DNA from: Candidatus Zhuqueibacterota bacterium
Lineage (GTDB): Bacteria > Zhuqueibacterota > Zhuqueibacteria > Residuimicrobiales > Oceaniaggregativiventaceae
Assembly (NCBI GenBank): GCA_014728085.1
Contig: WJMF01000110.1
Location: forward strand, 1 to 58,278
DNA length: 58,278 nucleotides
Direction: 5' to 3'
The notes under the pieces were generated by a model, which made no database searches, was not told the DNA's origin, and saw only the letters and a list, made by a program, of their open reading frames with translations. Both the position numbers and the translations under genes were made by a program. This document shows, piece by piece, positions 33,034 to 42,324 of the stretch (position 1 is the first letter of the stretch; each line of letters begins with the position of its first letter).

Positions 33034-34272
33034 ATGTCTGTACTTGCCATAAATGGAGGAACACCGGTACGCAGCAGGCCTTTTCCTGCCTGGCCCGTAT
33101 GGGGGGATGAGGAAATTAAAAATCTCACCGAGGTGGTTAAGAGCGCCAAGTGGGGCAGTTTACACGGAGACAAAACGGCCGCACTCGAACGCCAATTCGC
33201 GGATTTACATTGTGCCAGGGAGGGCGTCTGTATAAATAGCGGTACAACCGCTTTACAGATCGCTCTGATGGCGGCTGATGTCGAGGCCGGCGCGGAGGTC
33301 ATTGTCCCTGCTTATACGTTTATCGCTACGGCAACCGCTGTAATTGAAGTGGGATGCGTCCCGATCTTTGTCGACGTTGAAGCAGAGACCTGCAATATCA
33401 ATCCTGTAGAAATTGAAAAAGCGATTACAGAAAAGACGGCAGCTATTATGCCGGTTCATTTTGCCGGTCGCCCTGCAAATATGGATGAAATTCTCGCCAT
33501 CGGCCGTAAACATGATCTCGTCATCATCGAGGACGCAGCACAGGCCTGGGGGGCAAAATGGGACAGCCTTCCTGTTGGTGCCATCGGCAAGGCAGGCGTT
33601 TTTAGTTTCCAGTCTTCAAAGAATATTAACAGCGGTGAGGGTGGAATTCTATTGACCAATGATAGTATTGTTGCCAAAATGGCCCGCTCTCATGCCAATT
33701 GCGGCCGAAGTGATGATGGGGAATGGTACGAACATTTTTATTATGGTGGGAATTATCGCCTGACCGAATTTCAGGCTGCGGTTTTACTGGCACAATTGCA
33801 GCGCTACCCGGAACTGCACAAAATCCGGCTGGCAAATCTCGAATACCTCAATGAAAAGCTCGCGGATATTCCTGGAATCGAAATCTGTCGACCTGATGAC
33901 CGTATTTCAGATCATGCTTGTCATATCTTTGTTTTTCGAATAATCCCTGCTGAGTTTGGCTCCAAAAGCAAAAACAGCATCATACATGCCCTGCAAAAAG
34001 AGGGCATCCCTGCGAACGGCGGTTATTCTTTGCCTTTGTATAAACAACCGGTTTTCCTCAACAAGTCTTTTGGACGCCGTGGCAAGAGTGTGGATTTTCC
34101 CATTGACTATTCCGCATTCCATTGTCCGGTTACCGAATCTCTTTGTAATGATCAGGCCATTTGGCTGCGGCAAAATATGTTGCTGGGTACCCGCGAGGAT
34201 ATGGATGATATTGTTAATGCTATCAGGAAAGTAAAGGAACAGGCACATACATTGAATGAAAAAATATCTTGA
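33034..34272 (+). CDS. DegT/DnrJ/EryC1/StrS-family aminotransferase
   Basis: 412 residues. PLP-dependent fold type I. NSGTTALQIALMAA binds PLP phosphate, VIIEDAAQAWGA holds the Asp that contacts the pyridine nitrogen, and Lys196 in SFQSSKNINSGEGG is the Schiff-base lysine. The C-terminal half has YGGNYRLTEFQAAVLLAQL. Members convert keto-sugars to aminosugars, or act on other ketones in secondary metabolism. SD GGAGG. It follows the GHMP kinase by 45 nt and ends just before the aromatic leader region. Confidence 0.9.
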   Translation: MSVLAINGGTPVRSRPFPAWPVWGDEEIKNLTEVVKSAKWGSLHGDKTAALERQFADLHCAREGVCINSGTTALQIALMAADVEAGAEVIVPAYTFIATATAVIEVGCVPIFVDVEAETCNINPVEIEKAITEKTAAIMPVHFAGRPANMDEILAIGRKHDLVIIEDAAQAWGAKWDSLPVGAIGKAGVFSFQSSKNINSGEGGILLTNDSIVAKMARSHANCGRSDDGEWYEHFYYGGNYRLTEFQAAVLLAQLQRYPELHKIRLANLEYLNEKLADIPGIEICRPDDRISDHACHIFVFRIIPAEFGSKSKNSIIHALQKEGIPANGGYSLPLYKQPVFLNKSFGRRGKSVDFPIDYSAFHCPVTESLCNDQAIWLRQNMLLGTREDMDDIVNAIRKVKEQAHTLNEKIS

Positions 34273-34329: not shown

Positions 34330-34404
34330 ATGAAACGGAAGCTTAAAATATTTAATTATTTTTATTATTACGATCTTTTTTCTGTCGTAGAGGGCGAGCG
34401 CTGA
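34330..34404 (+). CDS. Phe/Tyr-rich leader peptide of the aromatic operon
   Basis: A 24-codon ORF starting MKRKLKIF and ending VVEGER, with seven Phe/Tyr codons (Phe8, Tyr10, Phe11, Tyr12, Tyr13, Tyr14, Phe17) and no Trp. It sits 72 nt before the first operon gene and just upstream of a strong intrinsic terminator. The ribosome binding site is weak (AGCGGA). The last codons contain CGTAGAGGG (34386-34394), which can pair with the 5' arm of the terminator. This is the layout of Phe/Trp-type attenuation leader peptides. The peptide itself is probably not functional. Confidence 0.75.
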   Translation: MKRKLKIFNYFYYYDLFSVVEGER

Positions 34405-34440
34405 CTTGATAAAAGAAACAACCGCAACTCACCCACTGCG
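34386..34440 (+). promoter_or_regulatory. Antiterminator stem competing with the aromatic-operon terminator
   Basis: CGTAGAGGG (34386-34394) can pair with CCCACTGCG (34432-34440) in 8 of 9 positions, one a wobble and one an A-A mismatch. The segment 34432-34440 is also the 5' arm of the terminator, so the two folds exclude each other. The upstream copy resembles the terminator's 3' arm CGTAGTGGG. A ribosome stalled at Tyr12-14 would leave 34386-34394 free; one at the stop codon (34402-34404) would cover it. Confidence 0.7.
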
Positions 34441-34466
34441 CCAAAAAACGTAGTGGGTTTTTTTTT
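34431..34466 (+). terminator. Attenuator terminator before the aromatic operon
   Basis: ACCCACTGCG (34431-34440) pairs with CGTAGTGGGT (34449-34458), a 10-bp stem with one G-T wobble and an 8-nt loop CCAAAAAA. It is followed by a run of T's (34458-34466). It lies 10 nt before the chorismate mutase ATG. A terminator at this place would shut off the operon unless read through. Confidence 0.85.
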
Positions 34467-34476
34467 GGAGTCCGGT

Positions 34477-34740
34477 ATGCAATTGGATGAATTGCGTTTA
34501 AAAATCGATACATTGGATGAGCAGTTGTTACAACTGCTCAACGAGCGGGCAAAAGTGGCCCTGCAAATCGGTGAACTTAAAAAGTCGCAGAACTTACCCC
34601 TGTATCACCCCAAACGCGAGAGCAGTGTACTGGAAAATGTTCTATCCAGCAATCAGGGTCCCCTTTCATCAGAACATATTCAGCTTGTTTTTTCTGATAT
34701 TATTAAAATTTGCAAACAAATACAACTTTTTCGAGGTTAA
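34477..34740 (+). CDS. Chorismate mutase (AroQ-fold, monofunctional)
   Basis: 87 residues from ATG 34477 with TTGGAG 6 nt upstream. QLDELRLKIDTLDEQLLQLL, then NERAKVALQIGELKK and YHPKRESSVLENV are the classical helical chorismate mutase motifs with the active-site Arg and Lys. It rearranges chorismate to prephenate. Its stop is followed directly by the DAHP synthase start. There is no fused dehydratase or dehydrogenase. First enzyme gene after the attenuator. Confidence 0.93.
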   Translation: MQLDELRLKIDTLDEQLLQLLNERAKVALQIGELKKSQNLPLYHPKRESSVLENVLSSNQGPLSSEHIQLVFSDIIKICKQIQLFRG

Positions 34741-34742
34741 TT

Positions 34743-35756
34743 TTGGTTATCGTAATGGATGAGACCGCCACCAAGGGACAAATTGAAGCGGTCGAATTAA
34801 GGTTGAAAGAAAAGGGGTTTCAGATTCATCGGGTAGATGGCGTCACTCGTACCATTTTGGGAGCGATCGGGGATAAACGCGGAATCGATTTGCGTGAATT
34901 TGAAGTGATGGAAGGGGTACATGAAGTTCTGCGTATTACCCAACCCTATAAATTGGCCAGCCGCACTTTTCACCCGGATGACAGCGTTATTCAGGTAAAA
35001 GGGGCTCTTTTTGGCGGAGATCATATTGCTATGATAGCGGGGCCCTGTTCCATCGAAAGTGAAAAGCAGCTTTATGCGATTGCCCAAAGCATCAAAAACT
35101 CCGGGGCCAGGTTGTTACGAGGGGGTGCCTTTAAACCACGAACGTCACCCTACTCATTTCAGGGGTTGGGCATCGACGGACTAAAAATAATGAATTCAAT
35201 TGCAGATGAACTGGGACTCGCAACCGTATCGGAAATGATGGAGATCGGACAGCTGGATGCCATGATTGAATATGTTGATATTATTCAAGTCGGGGCTCGA
35301 AACATGCAGAATTTTCCATTGCTTAAAGAGCTCGGCAATATCAAAAAACCAATTCTTTTAAAGCGCGGCCTGGCAGCAACAATCGAAGAACTGCTCATGG
35401 CGGCGGAATACATCATGTCTGGTGGCAATTATCAAATTATCCTTTGTGAGCGCGGTATACGCACCTTTGAGACGTACACTCGAAACACAATGGATATCAG
35501 CGCTATCCCGGTTACGCAGAGTCTCAGTCATCTTCCTATTATTGCTGATCCCAGTCATGGCACCGGACGTCGTGACCACGTTGCTCCCATGGCCCGGGCG
35601 GCCATCGCTGCAGGCGCAAACGGATTAATCATTGAAGTCCATCATGATCCTGACCACGCCCTCTCTGATGGTGCCCAGTCTCTTTACCCAAATCAATTTT
35701 CACGACTTATGCAGGAACTTCAAACCATTGCCTGGACAATCGGTAAAACTTTGTGA
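34743..35756 (+). CDS. aroF: 3-deoxy-7-phosphoheptulonate (DAHP) synthase, type I with N-terminal regulatory domain
   Basis: 337 residues if started at TTG 34743 (GAGG at 34733-34736); an upstream TTG and the ATG at 34755 are alternatives. The N-terminal ~70 residues (VIVMDETATKGQIEAVELRL) form the ferredoxin-like regulatory domain known from Thermotoga-type enzymes, where Tyr and Phe inhibit. The barrel has IAGPCSIES, LLRGGAFKPRTSPYSFQG, IIQVGARNMQNF and DPSHGTGRRDHV. It condenses phosphoenolpyruvate with erythrose-4-phosphate, the entry step. So feedback inhibition may act together with the leader attenuator. Confidence 0.95.
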   Translation: MVIVMDETATKGQIEAVELRLKEKGFQIHRVDGVTRTILGAIGDKRGIDLREFEVMEGVHEVLRITQPYKLASRTFHPDDSVIQVKGALFGGDHIAMIAGPCSIESEKQLYAIAQSIKNSGARLLRGGAFKPRTSPYSFQGLGIDGLKIMNSIADELGLATVSEMMEIGQLDAMIEYVDIIQVGARNMQNFPLLKELGNIKKPILLKRGLAATIEELLMAAEYIMSGGNYQIILCERGIRTFETYTRNTMDISAIPVTQSLSHLPIIADPSHGTGRRDHVAPMARAAIAAGANGLIIEVHHDPDHALSDGAQSLYPNQFSRLMQELQTIAWTIGKTL

Positions 35757-35763
35757 GTGAATA

Positions 35764-36864
35764 ATGCAAAACTATAATCATATCGCTATCGTCGGGATTG
35801 GTCTGATCGGTGGCTCGCTGGCCCTGGCCCTGAAAAAAAAGGGGTACACCGGGACCATTGTTGGTGTGGATAGTGAAGAGATCATTCAGCAAGCCAGGGA
35901 GAGAAACGCTGTTGACAAGGCTTATATCAAACCGGATATTGAAAACGCAGTTAAAGATGCAGACCTGATCTTTTTATGTACACCGATCGCGGAAATCATC
36001 AAAATTTTGCAAACGATCGGCAAGTTTGTCAAACCATCGGCACTCATCACCGATGTTGGAAGTACAAAGCGAAAGATCATGGAAATCGCCAATATTCATT
36101 TGCCCTCAGATGTCAATTTTATCGGTGGACATCCCATGGCCGGATCAGAGTTTAGCAGCATTGATGCGGCTGATCCGTTTTTATTTGAAAATACGACCTG
36201 GGTTCTCACCCCTGGCCGTCCTTTAAATGAAGAAGATAAGCGTGCGTTTGGAGAACTGCTGGAATTTATCGGAGCCAAGGTGTTGTTACTCCTGCCCAAT
36301 CTGCACGATGAAATAGCCGCTGCAGTAAGTCATTTGCCTCAAATGGCGGCAGTGGCACTAATGCATCTCGCCGCCAGTCGCCAGCTCGAAAGTCCTCATT
36401 TTTTAAAAATGGCTGCGGGCGGATTTCGCGATATGACGCGAATTTCTTCCAGCCCCTTTGGAATCTGGACCGATATTTTGCAAACGAATAACGATATGAT
36501 CGAAAATTATATAGATGCCTATATCACAGAACTACAGACTATAAAAAAGGCGCTACAGGATAATACAATCGGTAAATACTTTGATAGAGCTGCTCAAAGC
36601 CGGCTTTCCATTCCCAAAGATACCAAAGGATTTTTAAAACCACATTATGATTTGCTGGTTTCCGTTGAAGACAGGCCGGGAATGATCGCTGATATTTCTA
36701 AATTTCTTGCAGCAGAGAATATCAACATCAAGGATATTGAGGTACTAAAGATTCGCGAAAACGAAGGTGGTACGATACGGTTGGCCTTTAGCTCGGAATC
36801 TGACCGGGACCAGGCCAATCATCATCTAAGCCAAAATGGATTTGAATGCAGAAAGAGGGAGTAA
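35764..36864 (+). CDS. tyrA: Prephenate dehydrogenase with ACT domain
   Basis: 366 residues. The Rossmann nucleotide loop IVGIGLIGGSLALAL lies near the start, GGHPMAGSEFSSID holds the catalytic His region, and AAAVSHLPQMAAVAL is the second conserved block. A C-terminal ACT domain (about 295-366, LLVSVEDRPGMIADISKFLA) probably senses an aromatic amino acid. It makes 4-hydroxyphenylpyruvate for tyrosine. No prephenate dehydratase is in this operon. It starts 7 nt after aroF. Confidence 0.93.
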   Translation: MQNYNHIAIVGIGLIGGSLALALKKKGYTGTIVGVDSEEIIQQARERNAVDKAYIKPDIENAVKDADLIFLCTPIAEIIKILQTIGKFVKPSALITDVGSTKRKIMEIANIHLPSDVNFIGGHPMAGSEFSSIDAADPFLFENTTWVLTPGRPLNEEDKRAFGELLEFIGAKVLLLLPNLHDEIAAAVSHLPQMAAVALMHLAASRQLESPHFLKMAAGGFRDMTRISSSPFGIWTDILQTNNDMIENYIDAYITELQTIKKALQDNTIGKYFDRAAQSRLSIPKDTKGFLKPHYDLLVSVEDRPGMIADISKFLAAENINIKDIEVLKIRENEGGTIRLAFSSESDRDQANHHLSQNGFECRKRE

Positions 36865-36865
36865 A

Positions 36866-38149
36866 ATGGCAGAAAAAACCCTATCACCAAGCCGTTTTTT
36901 GTCCGGGACCGTGTCTTTGCCGGGTGACAAATCCATATCTCATCGCGCCCTTTTGCTTGCCGGCATCGCTTCCGGTGAATCCTGCATCAGCGGAATATCC
37001 ACCAGTGAGGATGTCCTCAGTACCATTTCTTGTCTGAGAAAACTGGGCGTTAAGATCAAACGCAGCAAAACCGATGTTGTTGTGCAGGGAGTGGGCCGGG
37101 AAGGTCTGAAGCAACCCAGGAGCAAGCTTGATGCCGGTAATTCCGGGACAACCATGCGTCTTTTAACAGGTATTTTATCCGCACAAACCTTTATCAGTAC
37201 GATTGATGGGGATGAGTCATTGCGCAAACGGCCGATGCGCCGAATTATTGATCCCCTCGAGCAAATGGGGGCACAAATCGAAAACAATAATTATCGCGCT
37301 CCCCTTAAAATCATCGGACGCCCTTTACGGGCCATTGATTATGCCTCACCTATTGCCAGTGCCCAGGTCAAGTCGGCTATTATACTAGCCGGGCTTTATG
37401 CCCGCGGTATTACCCGGGTTACTGAACGCTCGGCATCCAGAGATCACACCGAACGAATGTTGGGTGAATTCGGCGTCAAGGCCCAATATTCAATGGGCGG
37501 TGCAGGGGTCAAAGGACCCGCCGATTTACAAGCCTGTGATATTGATATCCCCCGAGATATATCTGCAGCTGCCTTTTTTCTCGTTGCGGCCTGTCTTTTG
37601 CCTGATTCTGAAATTGAAATTACCAATGTGGGGACCAATCCGACCAGAATCGGTGTACTCGATGCACTCTCTTCTATGGGCGCCCGGATTAAAAAAAGCC
37701 GCGAAAAGGTCATCAACAATGAACCCCGGACGGATTTAATCGCAAAATCGTCCTCACTGCATCAGACGACCCTGCAGGGATCAATAATCTCCAATATCAT
37801 CGATGAAATCCCAATCCTGTCCATTGCCGCCACCCAGGCTGAAGGAACAACCATCATACGGGATGCGCAGGAACTCAGAGTCAAAGAGTCCGATCGCATA
37901 AAGGCAATCGTAAGTAATCTTAAAAAAATGAATGCCAATGTTAAAGAAAGCAAAGACGGCCTTTTAATTACCGGTCCCACCCCACTCACCGGCGCCACTA
38001 TAGACAGCTACGGGGATCATCGTATAGCCATGTCGTTTGCCATCGCCGGATTAATTGCCGACGGAAAGACCGTAATAAAGGGTGCCGAATGCGTCGATAT
38101 ATCGTTTCCCGGCTTTTTTGATATTCTTGATGAGATTCGGAATGATTAA
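36866..38149 (+). CDS. aroA: 3-phosphoshikimate 1-carboxyvinyltransferase (EPSP synthase)
   Basis: 427 residues from ATG 36866 (AGAGGGA upstream), directly after tyrA. VSLPGDKSISHRALLLAGIA is the substrate lysine motif; LDAGNSGTTMRLLTGIL is the conserved glycine-rich loop; DGDESLRKRPMRRIIDPLEQ and the late QELRVKESDRI and GDHRIAM motifs follow. It adds enolpyruvate to shikimate-3-phosphate. The LDAGNSGTTMR loop has Ala next to the LD pair, the common form. It overlaps aroE by 8 nt. Confidence 0.96.
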   Translation: MAEKTLSPSRFLSGTVSLPGDKSISHRALLLAGIASGESCISGISTSEDVLSTISCLRKLGVKIKRSKTDVVVQGVGREGLKQPRSKLDAGNSGTTMRLLTGILSAQTFISTIDGDESLRKRPMRRIIDPLEQMGAQIENNNYRAPLKIIGRPLRAIDYASPIASAQVKSAIILAGLYARGITRVTERSASRDHTERMLGEFGVKAQYSMGGAGVKGPADLQACDIDIPRDISAAAFFLVAACLLPDSEIEITNVGTNPTRIGVLDALSSMGARIKKSREKVINNEPRTDLIAKSSSLHQTTLQGSIISNIIDEIPILSIAATQAEGTTIIRDAQELRVKESDRIKAIVSNLKKMNANVKESKDGLLITGPTPLTGATIDSYGDHRIAMSFAIAGLIADGKTVIKGAECVDISFPGFFDILDEIRND

Positions 38150-39002
38150 TACGAGTACCTGCGTATACGGCGTTATAGGATATCCGATCGAACACAGCTT
38201 GTCCCCTGTATTGCATAACTGGTTCATGAGCAATTATAAACTCAATGCGGTTTATGTTGCTTTTAATGTACATCCTTCCGAATTGAAGAATGCCATTAAA
38301 GGTGGGTCTGCATTGGGGGTCATCGGGTTAAACGTAACCATACCTCACAAAGAAGCCCTCCTGGGACTTGTGGATGAAAAAGATAGAGACGTTAAGCTTG
38401 TGGGTGCGATCAATACACTTGAGTTGAATGCAGGAAAAATTCAGGCTCACGTTACGGATCCATATGGTTTTACGGAATCTCTCGGTCAAAGGAAATATTG
38501 GTTTAAAAATGCCGAGGTGTTGTTGCTCGGTGCCGGCGGTGCGGCCAAATCAGTCGTCTATGCACTGGAGAAACTGGATGTCAAAAAAATATGGATTTAT
38601 AACCGCTCGGCTCAGAGACTGCGTGCTTTTCTCGACTTTTGCCATAACGCCCTAACCGTTTCCAAAGTGCAAGCCATCGACAGGAAGCAGCTCAACGATA
38701 TCGCGTTTGACTGTAAAATTATTATCAACACCACTTCTGCAGGCATGTATCCTCATACCGGAGAGAGTTTGTTGAGGAGCGACGTTTTTCATGATGCTCA
38801 CTTTGTTTACGATTTGGTTTATAATCCGGAAAAAACCAAATTATTGCTGGATGCAGAACACAAGGGCGCAACAATACAAAATGGGATTGATATGTTGATT
38901 TTCCAGGGACTGGAATCTTTGCGAATCTGGACAAAGCAACCTCTTCGACTTGAAGCGCCTAAATTAAAAAAAATTCGCCATATTTTGCAGAGCCGATTAT
39001 GA
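38142..39002 (+). CDS. aroE: Shikimate dehydrogenase
   Basis: 286 residues from ATG 38142, overlapping the end of aroA. YGVIGYPIEHSLSPVLHNW binds shikimate; NVTIPHKEALL contains the catalytic Lys; VLLLGAGGAAKSVVYALEKL is the NADP loop, followed by IWIYNRSAQR. It reduces 3-dehydroshikimate. Its ATG end overlaps aroC by 4 nt. Confidence 0.95.
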   Translation: MINTSTCVYGVIGYPIEHSLSPVLHNWFMSNYKLNAVYVAFNVHPSELKNAIKGGSALGVIGLNVTIPHKEALLGLVDEKDRDVKLVGAINTLELNAGKIQAHVTDPYGFTESLGQRKYWFKNAEVLLLGAGGAAKSVVYALEKLDVKKIWIYNRSAQRLRAFLDFCHNALTVSKVQAIDRKQLNDIAFDCKIIINTTSAGMYPHTGESLLRSDVFHDAHFVYDLVYNPEKTKLLLDAEHKGATIQNGIDMLIFQGLESLRIWTKQPLRLEAPKLKKIRHILQSRL

Positions 39003-40201
39003 TTTTGAATCGAATACGCTTTTTGACGGCAGGGGAATCTCATGGTATTGCCCTGAATACAATTATCGAAGGTGTACCGGCAGGTTTACGGTTAAGCGAA
39101 AGCGATATTGCCGGAGAGCTTGGCAGACGACAGCGAGGGTATGGCCGGGGCGACCGGATGAAAATAGAAACAGATCGGGCCCGAATCTTGTCGGGCGTGC
39201 GCTATGGTAAAACCATTGGCAGCCCAATTTCTCTTCTTCTCGAAAACAAAGACTGGATCAACTGGCAGAAAAAAATGTCAATCATAGAGGTCGACCAGCC
39301 TGCTGACCTGCTGCAAATGCCACGACCGGGACATGCCGATTTTGCCGGTATGGTAAAATACCGTCACAACGATCTCCGCAATATACTTGAAAGGTCTTCC
39401 GCCCGGGAAACCGCTATGCGGGTAGCAGCCGGTGCGGTTGCGAAAAAACTTCTCAAAGCCTTTGGTATCGAAGTTTTTGGCCATGTTCTTCAAATAGAAA
39501 GCATATCAACCTGTCATTCAGCACTCTCGTTGCTGCAGCAGCGCCATTCACTGGAAAAATGGCGTCATTATATGGAGCGCGTCGAGAACTCTTCGGTCGC
39601 GTGTGCAGACGCTTCAGCGGAAGAAAAAATGATCGCCCGTATCGAAAGTGCCAGGAAAACCGGAGATACTCTCGGTGGCATTTTTGAAGTTGTCGCTATC
39701 GGAATACCCGTCGGTTTGGGCAGCCATGTTCATTACGATCGAAAACTCGATGGTTTGATCGCCCTTGCTATGATGAGCATCAATGCCATCAAATCCGTGG
39801 AGATCGGACTCGGAAAGGATGCCGCATCGCTGCCCGGCAGTGAGGTCCATGATGAAATATTGCCAGATAAAGCCAGGACCTATTATCGCCCGAGCAACAA
39901 TGCCGGTGGAATCGAAGGCGGTATGAGCAACGGCGAACCCGTTGTCGTCCGTCTGGCAATGAAACCAATACCGACAATGAGCCGTCCACTCAGATCCATT
40001 GATGCCGGCACATTACATCCTGAAAAAGCGTTCAGAGAACGAGCGGACGTTTGCGCCGTACCTGCTGCAGTCGTTGTTGCAGAAGCAATGCTTGCTCTTG
40101 TATTGGCTGATTCCCTCCTACAAAAGCTCGGAGGAGATTCTGTGACAGAGATGAAAGAGCGTTTTGATGAATTACCACAAATACCACTTGAAAGAACATA
40201 A
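38999..40201 (+). CDS. aroC: Chorismate synthase
   Basis: 400 residues. FLTAGESHGIALNTIIEG and ELGRRQRGYGRGDRMKIE are the FMN/substrate motifs; GSPISLLLENKDW, RPGHADFAGMVKYRHND and the NNAGGIEGGMSNGEPVVVR block follow. It eliminates phosphate from EPSP to give chorismate, needing reduced FMN. It overlaps aroE by 4 nt and aroK by 35 nt. Confidence 0.96.
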   Translation: MILNRIRFLTAGESHGIALNTIIEGVPAGLRLSESDIAGELGRRQRGYGRGDRMKIETDRARILSGVRYGKTIGSPISLLLENKDWINWQKKMSIIEVDQPADLLQMPRPGHADFAGMVKYRHNDLRNILERSSARETAMRVAAGAVAKKLLKAFGIEVFGHVLQIESISTCHSALSLLQQRHSLEKWRHYMERVENSSVACADASAEEKMIARIESARKTGDTLGGIFEVVAIGIPVGLGSHVHYDRKLDGLIALAMMSINAIKSVEIGLGKDAASLPGSEVHDEILPDKARTYYRPSNNAGGIEGGMSNGEPVVVRLAMKPIPTMSRPLRSIDAGTLHPEKAFRERADVCAVPAAVVVAEAMLALVLADSLLQKLGGDSVTEMKERFDELPQIPLERT

Positions 40202-40724
40202 CATTTATCTGGTCGGATTTATGGCAACCGGCAAATCGAGGGTGGGAAAAGTTCTTGCCGGTATGATGCAGAGGGCCTTTTTCGATACGGATGATTTTAT
40301 CGAGAAGACAAGCGGGCATACCATCGCAGAACTTTTCAGCTTGCAGGGTGAAAAGTATTTCAGAAGACTCGAACGGCAAACCGTCGAGATGATGACGCGG
40401 AAACGGGAAGCGGTTATTTCACTTGGCGGCGGTGCTGTCCTCGATCCCATCAATTGGCAGCGATTGACGGAAACCGGTCTCACCATATGCCTGCAGGCAG
40501 ACCTGGACGTGCTTGCAGACAGGATTTCCAGAAAAAAAAACCGGCCGCTAATGTCCGGTTATTCAAAATCTGAACTTCAAAGCCGGATACAGTCTCTCTT
40601 GCAGGAACGCGAACCTTATTATTGTCGTGCCGATTATATCTTCAAGAGTCGGGAAACTGTTCCAGCCGATGAATTGGCAGCAACCATATTTAAAACACTT
40701 TGGAATGATTATGCGTCAAATTAA
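40167..40724 (+). CDS. aroK: Shikimate kinase
   Basis: 185 residues from ATG 40167, inside the aroC end. The P-loop is IYLVGFMATGKSRVGKVLAG, then FFDTDDFIEKTSG with the substrate Asp pair, YFRRLERQTVEM and VISLGGGAVLD. NRPLM is the lid Arg motif. It phosphorylates shikimate. Length fits. Confidence 0.94.
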   Translation: MNYHKYHLKEHNIYLVGFMATGKSRVGKVLAGMMQRAFFDTDDFIEKTSGHTIAELFSLQGEKYFRRLERQTVEMMTRKREAVISLGGGAVLDPINWQRLTETGLTICLQADLDVLADRISRKKNRPLMSGYSKSELQSRIQSLLQEREPYYCRADYIFKSRETVPADELAATIFKTLWNDYASN

Positions 40725-41805
40725 AGTGAACCTCGGCAAACGAAGTTATCCGATATTTATTCAGAGTGGAGCGCTGACCGGCAATCCCGAGTTTTTGCGC
40801 CCCCTGGTGTCTTCTGATCGGCTTTTTATCACAAGTGATCACACCGTCGAAGATCTCTATGGAGAGAGGATTCGACGCTTTTTTGATTATTTTAGCATTC
40901 CGGTGGTTACTCTGACCGTAACGCCGGGTGAAGCTTCAAAATCGCTAAAGATTGCCGAAGAGCTTTACGACGCCCTTGTCGATCATCGTGCGACGCGCAA
41001 CTCGATGATCATCGCTTTTGGTGGTGGTGTCGTTGGCGATCTTGCCGGATTCGTCGCTGCAACCTTTATGCGCGGTATACATTATGCACAGATACCCACC
41101 ACGCTCTTGTCACAGGTAGACAGCAGTGTTGGCGGAAAGGCAGGTATAAATCACAGCAAAGGCAAAAATCTTATCGGAGCCTTTAATCAGCCAGACTTTG
41201 TAGTTATCGATCCGCAGGTTTTAAAAACGCTGTCGCATCGCGATATTCGCTCGGGATTGGCTGAAGTCATTAAAACGGCTCTCATCGGCGATCATCAATT
41301 GTATCAATTCTTGCGGGAAAAAATCGCTCAAGTTGAGGCGTTGTCCAATACAGAATTAACCGAATCCATTATCCATAGCTGTTGCCGCCTCAAGGCCCGG
41401 ATCGTCGAAGAGGATGAACAGGAGGGCGGAAAGAGAGCCATTCTCAATTTTGGACACACCATCGGGCATGCTCTCGAATCGGTTACACACTATGATACTT
41501 TTTTCCACGGTGAGGCGGTTTGTCACGGGATGCTGGCTGCCCTGCAACTGTCACTGACGCAGGGATTGCCGGATAACACCTGTCAGGCGGCAATTGAGCT
41601 GGTACAAAAACTTTATCCGCCCGAAATTCCCGCTTTTGTCTCTGTGGATGATATCGTTTCTGCAATGGAAAAGGACAAAAAAAGACAGCCTACCGGTCAG
41701 CTTTGGGTTTTGCTTAAAGATATCGCTCAACCGATATTGACAAAAGCACTTGCAGAAAATCAGGTAAGAGAGTCGATTGAGTTGTTATTGCAAAGAAAAT
41801 CTTAA
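40711..41805 (+). CDS. aroB: 3-dehydroquinate synthase
   Basis: 364 residues from ATG 40711, overlapping aroK by 14 nt. FGGGVVGDLAGFVAATFMRG binds NAD, PTTLLSQVDSSVGGKAGINH and the KNLIGAFNQP block are conserved, and HTIGHALE plus the FHGEAVCHGM stretch carry zinc ligands. It converts DAHP to 3-dehydroquinate. The strong sequence match and operon position make it certain. Confidence 0.96.
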   Translation: MRQIKVNLGKRSYPIFIQSGALTGNPEFLRPLVSSDRLFITSDHTVEDLYGERIRRFFDYFSIPVVTLTVTPGEASKSLKIAEELYDALVDHRATRNSMIIAFGGGVVGDLAGFVAATFMRGIHYAQIPTTLLSQVDSSVGGKAGINHSKGKNLIGAFNQPDFVVIDPQVLKTLSHRDIRSGLAEVIKTALIGDHQLYQFLREKIAQVEALSNTELTESIIHSCCRLKARIVEEDEQEGGKRAILNFGHTIGHALESVTHYDTFFHGEAVCHGMLAALQLSLTQGLPDNTCQAAIELVQKLYPPEIPAFVSVDDIVSAMEKDKKRQPTGQLWVLLKDIAQPILTKALAENQVRESIELLLQRKS

Positions 41806-41886: not shown

Positions 41887-42324
41887 ATGATATTGGTTAT
41901 TCATGGTCCCAATCTGAATCTTCTCGGCGAGCGGGAACCACAAATATATGGCACGCTTACCCTGTCAAAAATCGATGAGATGATTGATACAAAGGCGGAG
42001 CGGCTCAAGCTGCAGGTCAAGCATTTTCAGAGCAATCACGAAGGCGATATTATTGACTTTATTCATGAAAATCGACATGATGCCAAGGGTATATTGATCA
42101 ATCCGGCTGCCCTGACGCATTATAGTTATGCTTTACGGGATGCAATCAGCGCTGTTGCACTCCCCTGTGTGGAAGTCCATCTTTCAGATATTCAGGAGCG
42201 GGAACCATTTAGAAAACGTTCCGTCCTTAAAGAGATTTGTCTTGATCAGATCAGTGGTGAGGGGGTTAACAGTTACTTGAAAGGACTGGAACTTTTGGCC
42301 GGTCACCTCGGGGATGCTGACTAA
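41887..42324 (+). CDS. aroQ: 3-dehydroquinate dehydratase, type II
   Basis: 145 residues from ATG 41887 (AAAGAGGT upstream); GTG 41869 is a poorer choice. ILVIHGPNLNLLGEREPQIYG has the catalytic Tyr, KHFQSNHEGDIIDFIHEN and LINPAALTHYSYALRDAI the rest, with VEVHLSDIQEREPFR near the end. It dehydrates 3-dehydroquinate. It lies 81 nt after aroB and completes the seven enzymes of the pathway in this run. Confidence 0.95.
   Translation: MILVIHGPNLNLLGEREPQIYGTLTLSKIDEMIDTKAERLKLQVKHFQSNHEGDIIDFIHENRHDAKGILINPAALTHYSYALRDAISAVALPCVEVHLSDIQEREPFRKRSVLKEICLDQISGEGVNSYLKGLELLAGHLGDAD

Follow-up and report, generated by a model that had tools for sequence, protein, structure and literature searches.

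A probable leader-peptide attenuator with a mixed Tyr/Phe code upstream of the aromatic pathway operon in Candidatus Zhuqueibacterota

The window considered here, namely the whole analysed stretch of 58,278 nucleotides from a member of Candidatus Zhuqueibacterota (candidate division KSB1, FCB group), carries on its forward strand nine genes of aromatic biosynthesis identified by Pfam. The first structural gene encodes a type II chorismate mutase (34477-34740; CM_2, E 2.3e-24) and is followed by those for a type I DAHP synthase with a ferredoxin-like domain (34743-35756, start codon inferred), prephenate dehydrogenase with an ACT domain (tyrA, 35764-36864), EPSP synthase (aroA, 36863-38149), shikimate dehydrogenase (aroE, 38142-39002), chorismate synthase (aroC, 38999-40201), shikimate kinase (aroK, 40164-40724 as listed, the true start probably being later), 3-dehydroquinate synthase (aroB, 40702-41805) and type II dehydroquinase (aroQ, 41887-42324). 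The preliminary description of this DNA had spoken of a complete nine-gene aromatic operon; the nine genes are there, but the adjective goes too far, the prephenate dehydratase gene (pheA) being located outside the operon, elsewhere in the genome (G000:C80), and trp genes being absent.

Between the operon and an aminotransferase gene, which ends at 34272 on the same strand, lies a leader-peptide open reading frame (ORF) of 24 codons (34330-34404, forward strand, stop codon at 34402-34404). It encodes MKRKLKIFNYFYYYDLFSVVEGER, with Phe8, Tyr10, Phe11, Tyr12-14 and Phe17 as the sensor codons, exactly as initially described. The aromatic density of this ORF was reached in none of 300 dinucleotide shuffles of the region, and the aromatic run is conserved in relatives. 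Neither an obvious Shine-Dalgarno sequence before the ORF (by sequence inspection) nor a sigma-70-type promoter in the interval from the aminotransferase gene to the ORF was found; translation of the leader, with coupling of ribosome and polymerase, is presumed.

The ORF is followed by an intrinsic terminator (34431-34466, forward strand, conserved in relatives), made up of a stem of 10 pairs (34431-34458; ΔG, −16.3 kcal/mol) followed by nine consecutive U, the last at 34466. Its position, also given correctly in the preliminary description, leaves 10 nt before the ATG of the first gene at 34477. An antiterminator competes with it, the 5′ arm of which (34384-34398) falls within the last codons of the ORF and mimics the 3′ arm of the terminator, while the 3′ arm (34428-34440) overlaps the terminator 5′ arm. 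The pairing originally noted, between CGTAGAGGG (34386-34394) and 34432-34440, is present with eight of the nine positions paired (A34391/A34435 is the mismatch), and the helix is longer than first stated, GAG at 34396-34398 also pairing with CUC at 34428-34430. With an energy of −17.7 kcal/mol for the duplex, or −16.7 kcal/mol in context, the antiterminator is better than expected from shuffles (p = 0.015). A further helix, 34369-34373/34384-34388, a candidate for the 1:2 pause hairpin by which classical attenuators keep ribosome and polymerase in step, can be drawn by inspection and has a probability of 0.00 in ensemble folds.

A GGAG motif (34467-34470, forward strand, from sequence inspection) probably serves the first gene as its ribosome-binding site. 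It might be asked whether the leader regulates translation, by hiding or freeing this site or through re-initiation, rather than termination, the more so because GGAGUCCGG (34467-34475) pairs just upstream of the terminator in one full-length fold. This is very improbable: a strong stem with nine U immediately after it is an intrinsic terminator, the GGAG lies outside both the terminator and the antiterminator stems, and the 72 nt that separate the leader stop codon from the first gene would be long for re-initiation.

The features instead point, with high confidence, to a ribosome-mediated transcription attenuator of the chorismate/prephenate operon, for which charged Tyr-tRNA and Phe-tRNA would be the signals. 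As in classical leader-peptide attenuators, the leader ORF is dense in end-product codons, and an intrinsic terminator is located between leader and first gene. When Tyr and Phe are ample, the ribosome would reach the stop codon and cover approximately 34387-34412, including the antiterminator arm; with the arm masked, 34431-34440 would pair with 34449-34458 and transcription would stop ahead of the first gene. When Tyr or Phe is scarce, the ribosome would stall in the Tyr10-Tyr14 run and leave the arm at 34384-34398 exposed, which would capture 34428-34440 as it emerges, and the polymerase would continue into the nine genes.

The masking geometry was computed by assuming a fixed ribosome footprint (counted from the first base of the A-site codon, 15 nt in the upstream and 10 nt in the downstream direction), forced unpaired in an early fold that comprises the leader up to the terminator 5′ arm. 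The antiterminator probability in the window was 0.97-0.99 with the ribosome stalled at Tyr12-14, 0.41 at Phe17 and 0.00 at the stop codon. These values bear out the original proposal that a stall at Tyr12-14 frees the arm and a ribosome at the stop codon hides it, and indicate that Tyr10-Tyr14 are good sensor positions and Phe17 a poor one. A similar calculation on E. coli pheL before the 3′ arm is made, as a positive control, gave 0.84-0.92 for the stalled ribosome and 0.00 at the stop codon. With the same simple model, a stalled ribosome allowed the antiterminator in 34 of 39 leaders, a ribosome at the stop codon abolished it in 29, and both were the case in 26; in several relatives (L017, L028, L119 and L130 among them) a ribosome at the stop codon leaves the arm uncovered. 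The ribosome-free early fold of the window leader likewise favours the antiterminator, so that no shut-off is predicted when the leader is untranslated, unlike in trpL.

In the full-length equilibrium fold of the window leader the terminator wins in every ribosome state, and only seven of the 39 leaders have an antiterminator probability above 0.5 at equilibrium of the full leader, whereas in E. coli pheL it is above 0.8 when the ribosome stalls at Phe6-Phe11. Antitermination therefore needs kinetic trapping; that the antiterminator is kinetically preferred and that the leader responds to Tyr and Phe are both to be taken as presumptive. That the equilibrium fold of the finished leader suggests no antitermination was judged to be a limit of the model, yet it has been counted against the attenuator.

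The comparison drew on 22 genomes at the level of the order and 82 at that of the phylum. Within the order, 15 genomes have an intact region upstream of the chorismate mutase-DAHP synthase genes, and in all of them a Phe/Tyr-rich ORF and a terminator precede these genes; the module is present in most families of the phylum, about 15 in number. The distance from the ORF stop to the U-run is 46-67 nt in most leaders. The peptides, of which MNYHYYNFYYYYFYEPCGG, MFYFFYNYYFYFTCSGKG and MKYNFYNYYYFYFYFGSSGRD are examples, cannot be aligned over their full length, the aromatic run being kept, and a Trp codon is often present in the leaders of families f7, f8, f19, f20, f22 and f23. The module is absent upstream of the operon in families f6, f9, f10 and f11 of the same class; the individual loci of these families (L016, L018-L024, L026, L027, L029, L114, L115, L120 and L125) are without leader and mostly without terminator. 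Outside the phylum, aromatic-rich short ORFs with a terminator were also seen before DAHP synthase genes of Eisenbacteria (L088 and L096, with Trp codons) and Spirochaetota (L038).

In 36 of 39 loci the aromatic density was higher than in dinucleotide shuffles (p ≤ 0.05), the other three having TTG or GTG starts in the annotation, which the shuffle test ignores. When the identical ORF and terminator criterion was applied to both strands of 674 kb of control DNA around other genes, six matches were obtained. All six are trp leaders before trpE, and the criterion thus gave no false positive in 674 kb.

Whether the arms fit each other within each species was determined by scoring, for each of the 39 leaders, the arm between aromatic run and terminator against its own terminator and against those of the other species, with aromatic cluster and start codon picked by rule and not by pairing. 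The true pairs sum to −623 kcal/mol, as compared with −459 ± 16 kcal/mol in 20,000 permutations, the best of which reached −526.5 kcal/mol; because the sequences are related, the spread of the permutations should not be read as a strict probability. Common ancestry would, for its part, improve the fit of swapped arms rather than worsen it. The fit amounts to covariation of whole arms and is independent of sequence alignment. Clear pairings are those of GATAGTGGG opposite CCCACTATC (L030) and of GAGCATGGG opposite CCCATGCTC (L128); L117, L123 and L124 are weak members. The antiterminator is mutually exclusive with the terminator and shows compensating differences between species, and the conservation of leader ORF and stems in relatives, on which the preliminary description had made its proposal depend, is found for both, with arms that covary.

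These data bear on a competing explanation, in which the hairpin is the plain terminator of the upstream aminotransferase gene and the aromatic ORF a by-product of AT-rich DNA. The upstream gene is indeed close by and on the same strand, and AT-rich DNA favours TTT and TAT codons. However, the 10 nt from the U-run to the first ATG leave no space for a further promoter, the module is found repeatedly across the phylum with arms particular to each species, and it is produced neither by shuffles nor by control DNA, making this explanation extremely unlikely.

The nature of what is conserved is also informative with respect to a T-box, or another RNA with direct binding of tRNA or a ligand, in which case the ORF would be incidental. 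T-boxes do regulate such operons in other bacteria. In the present case, however, Rfam returns no T-box or riboswitch at gathering level across the window, nor does the leader match a T-box at E ≤ 10, and what is conserved across relatives is the aromatic reading frame and the complementarity of the arms, not the RNA sequence; such an RNA is hardly conceivable here. More generally, no known Rfam family matches the window leader at gathering or permissive thresholds, and eight relatives gave no Rfam match at E ≤ 0.5.

For the attenuator, the closest known system is E. coli pheL-pheA (RF01859, Phe_leader), with which it shares a short aromatic-rich leader ORF, a terminator before the first gene and an antiterminator arm that a stalled ribosome leaves accessible and a ribosome at the stop codon covers. 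The Phe_leader model scores 13.7 bits on the window leader against a threshold of 55, which is below the family threshold. Furthermore, pheL reads Phe only, whereas the window leader reads Tyr and Phe; the pheL arm follows the stop codon (ending at +13), whereas that of the window is inside the ORF, its end lying about 5 nt short of the last base of the stop codon; and pheL precedes pheA, whereas the window leader precedes a nine-gene operon without pheA. The initial likening to E. coli pheA is therefore apt for the logic but not for the geometry. Five loci from deep-branching members of the phylum (L137, L139, L141, L142 and L143) have the pheL layout, with the arm directly after the stop codon; the peptides of the deep-branching relatives L137-L143 mostly end FP*, and L141 has TGAATGGGAG in common with pheL.

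Attenuators of the trpL and hisL type, which follow the same logic with other amino acids, are both present in the order. Before hisG, 16 loci were scored in which the leader contains runs of His codons and is followed by a terminator, the genome of the window included (MFQQFPHNHHHLLTYPFKSGGNL); such leaders occur throughout the order (L190:1189-1330, in the window's own genome at G000:C74, and most of L178-L198). Leaders before trpE with three or four adjacent Trp codons were found at eight loci, again with the genome of the window among them (L174; G000:C101, reverse strand). Two tandem terminators, about 38-50 nt apart, follow the trp leaders and are conserved in all eight loci (L170-L177). 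The arm fit is species-specific in both sets, 0.7% of permutations being equally good for his and none of 20,000 for trp. Since His and Trp leaders also occur there, leader-peptide attenuation is a general habit of the order. The ORF and terminator criterion found no leaders before pheA (PDT), leuA or ilvD in the order, the search for the leu and ilv operons covering leuA and ilvD, while these operons may begin with other genes.

The leader is a case of ordinary ribosome-mediated attenuation, a kind already known. Multi-amino-acid leaders are known from the enterobacterial ilv and thr operons, and sensing of two amino acids is therefore not new in principle. A survey of 2010 noted that leader peptides had previously been found only in Proteobacteria and Actinobacteria, and added Firmicutes (PMC2965389). 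In Bacteroides thetaiotaomicron 5′ ORFs reminiscent of leader peptides have been described (PMC7366714), and in Flavobacterium psychrophilum clues to attenuation by leader peptides have been reported ahead of amino-acid operons, with conserved structured 5′ elements before pheA and hisG (PMC9723704); the latter belongs to the same superphylum, although to another phylum and with another operon, and is likened here by description and not by sequence. An incomplete search of the open-access literature found no publication that joins Zhuqueibacterota and attenuation. The early statement that no example had been described in this lineage can accordingly be kept at most for the phylum, given the published flavobacterial precedents in the FCB group.

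What is new is the lineage, the breadth of occurrence, a code that mixes Tyr and Phe, and a layout that varies. It appears rather probable that the attenuators integrate Tyr and Phe, and in some families also Trp, across the phylum to set the common aromatic pathway, and that they do so with two interchangeable layouts, of which that with the arm after the ORF would be either independent of enterobacterial pheL or shared with it. While the understanding of the attenuation mechanism itself is unchanged, amino-acid leader attenuation, best known in Proteobacteria and Actinobacteria, now reaches an uncultured phylum within the FCB group; the 39 examples make it possible to ask how leaders evolve under near-complete turnover of peptide and RNA sequence. 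For the organisms themselves, a lineage that is known chiefly through metagenomes, the attenuator predicts that transcription and translation are coupled.
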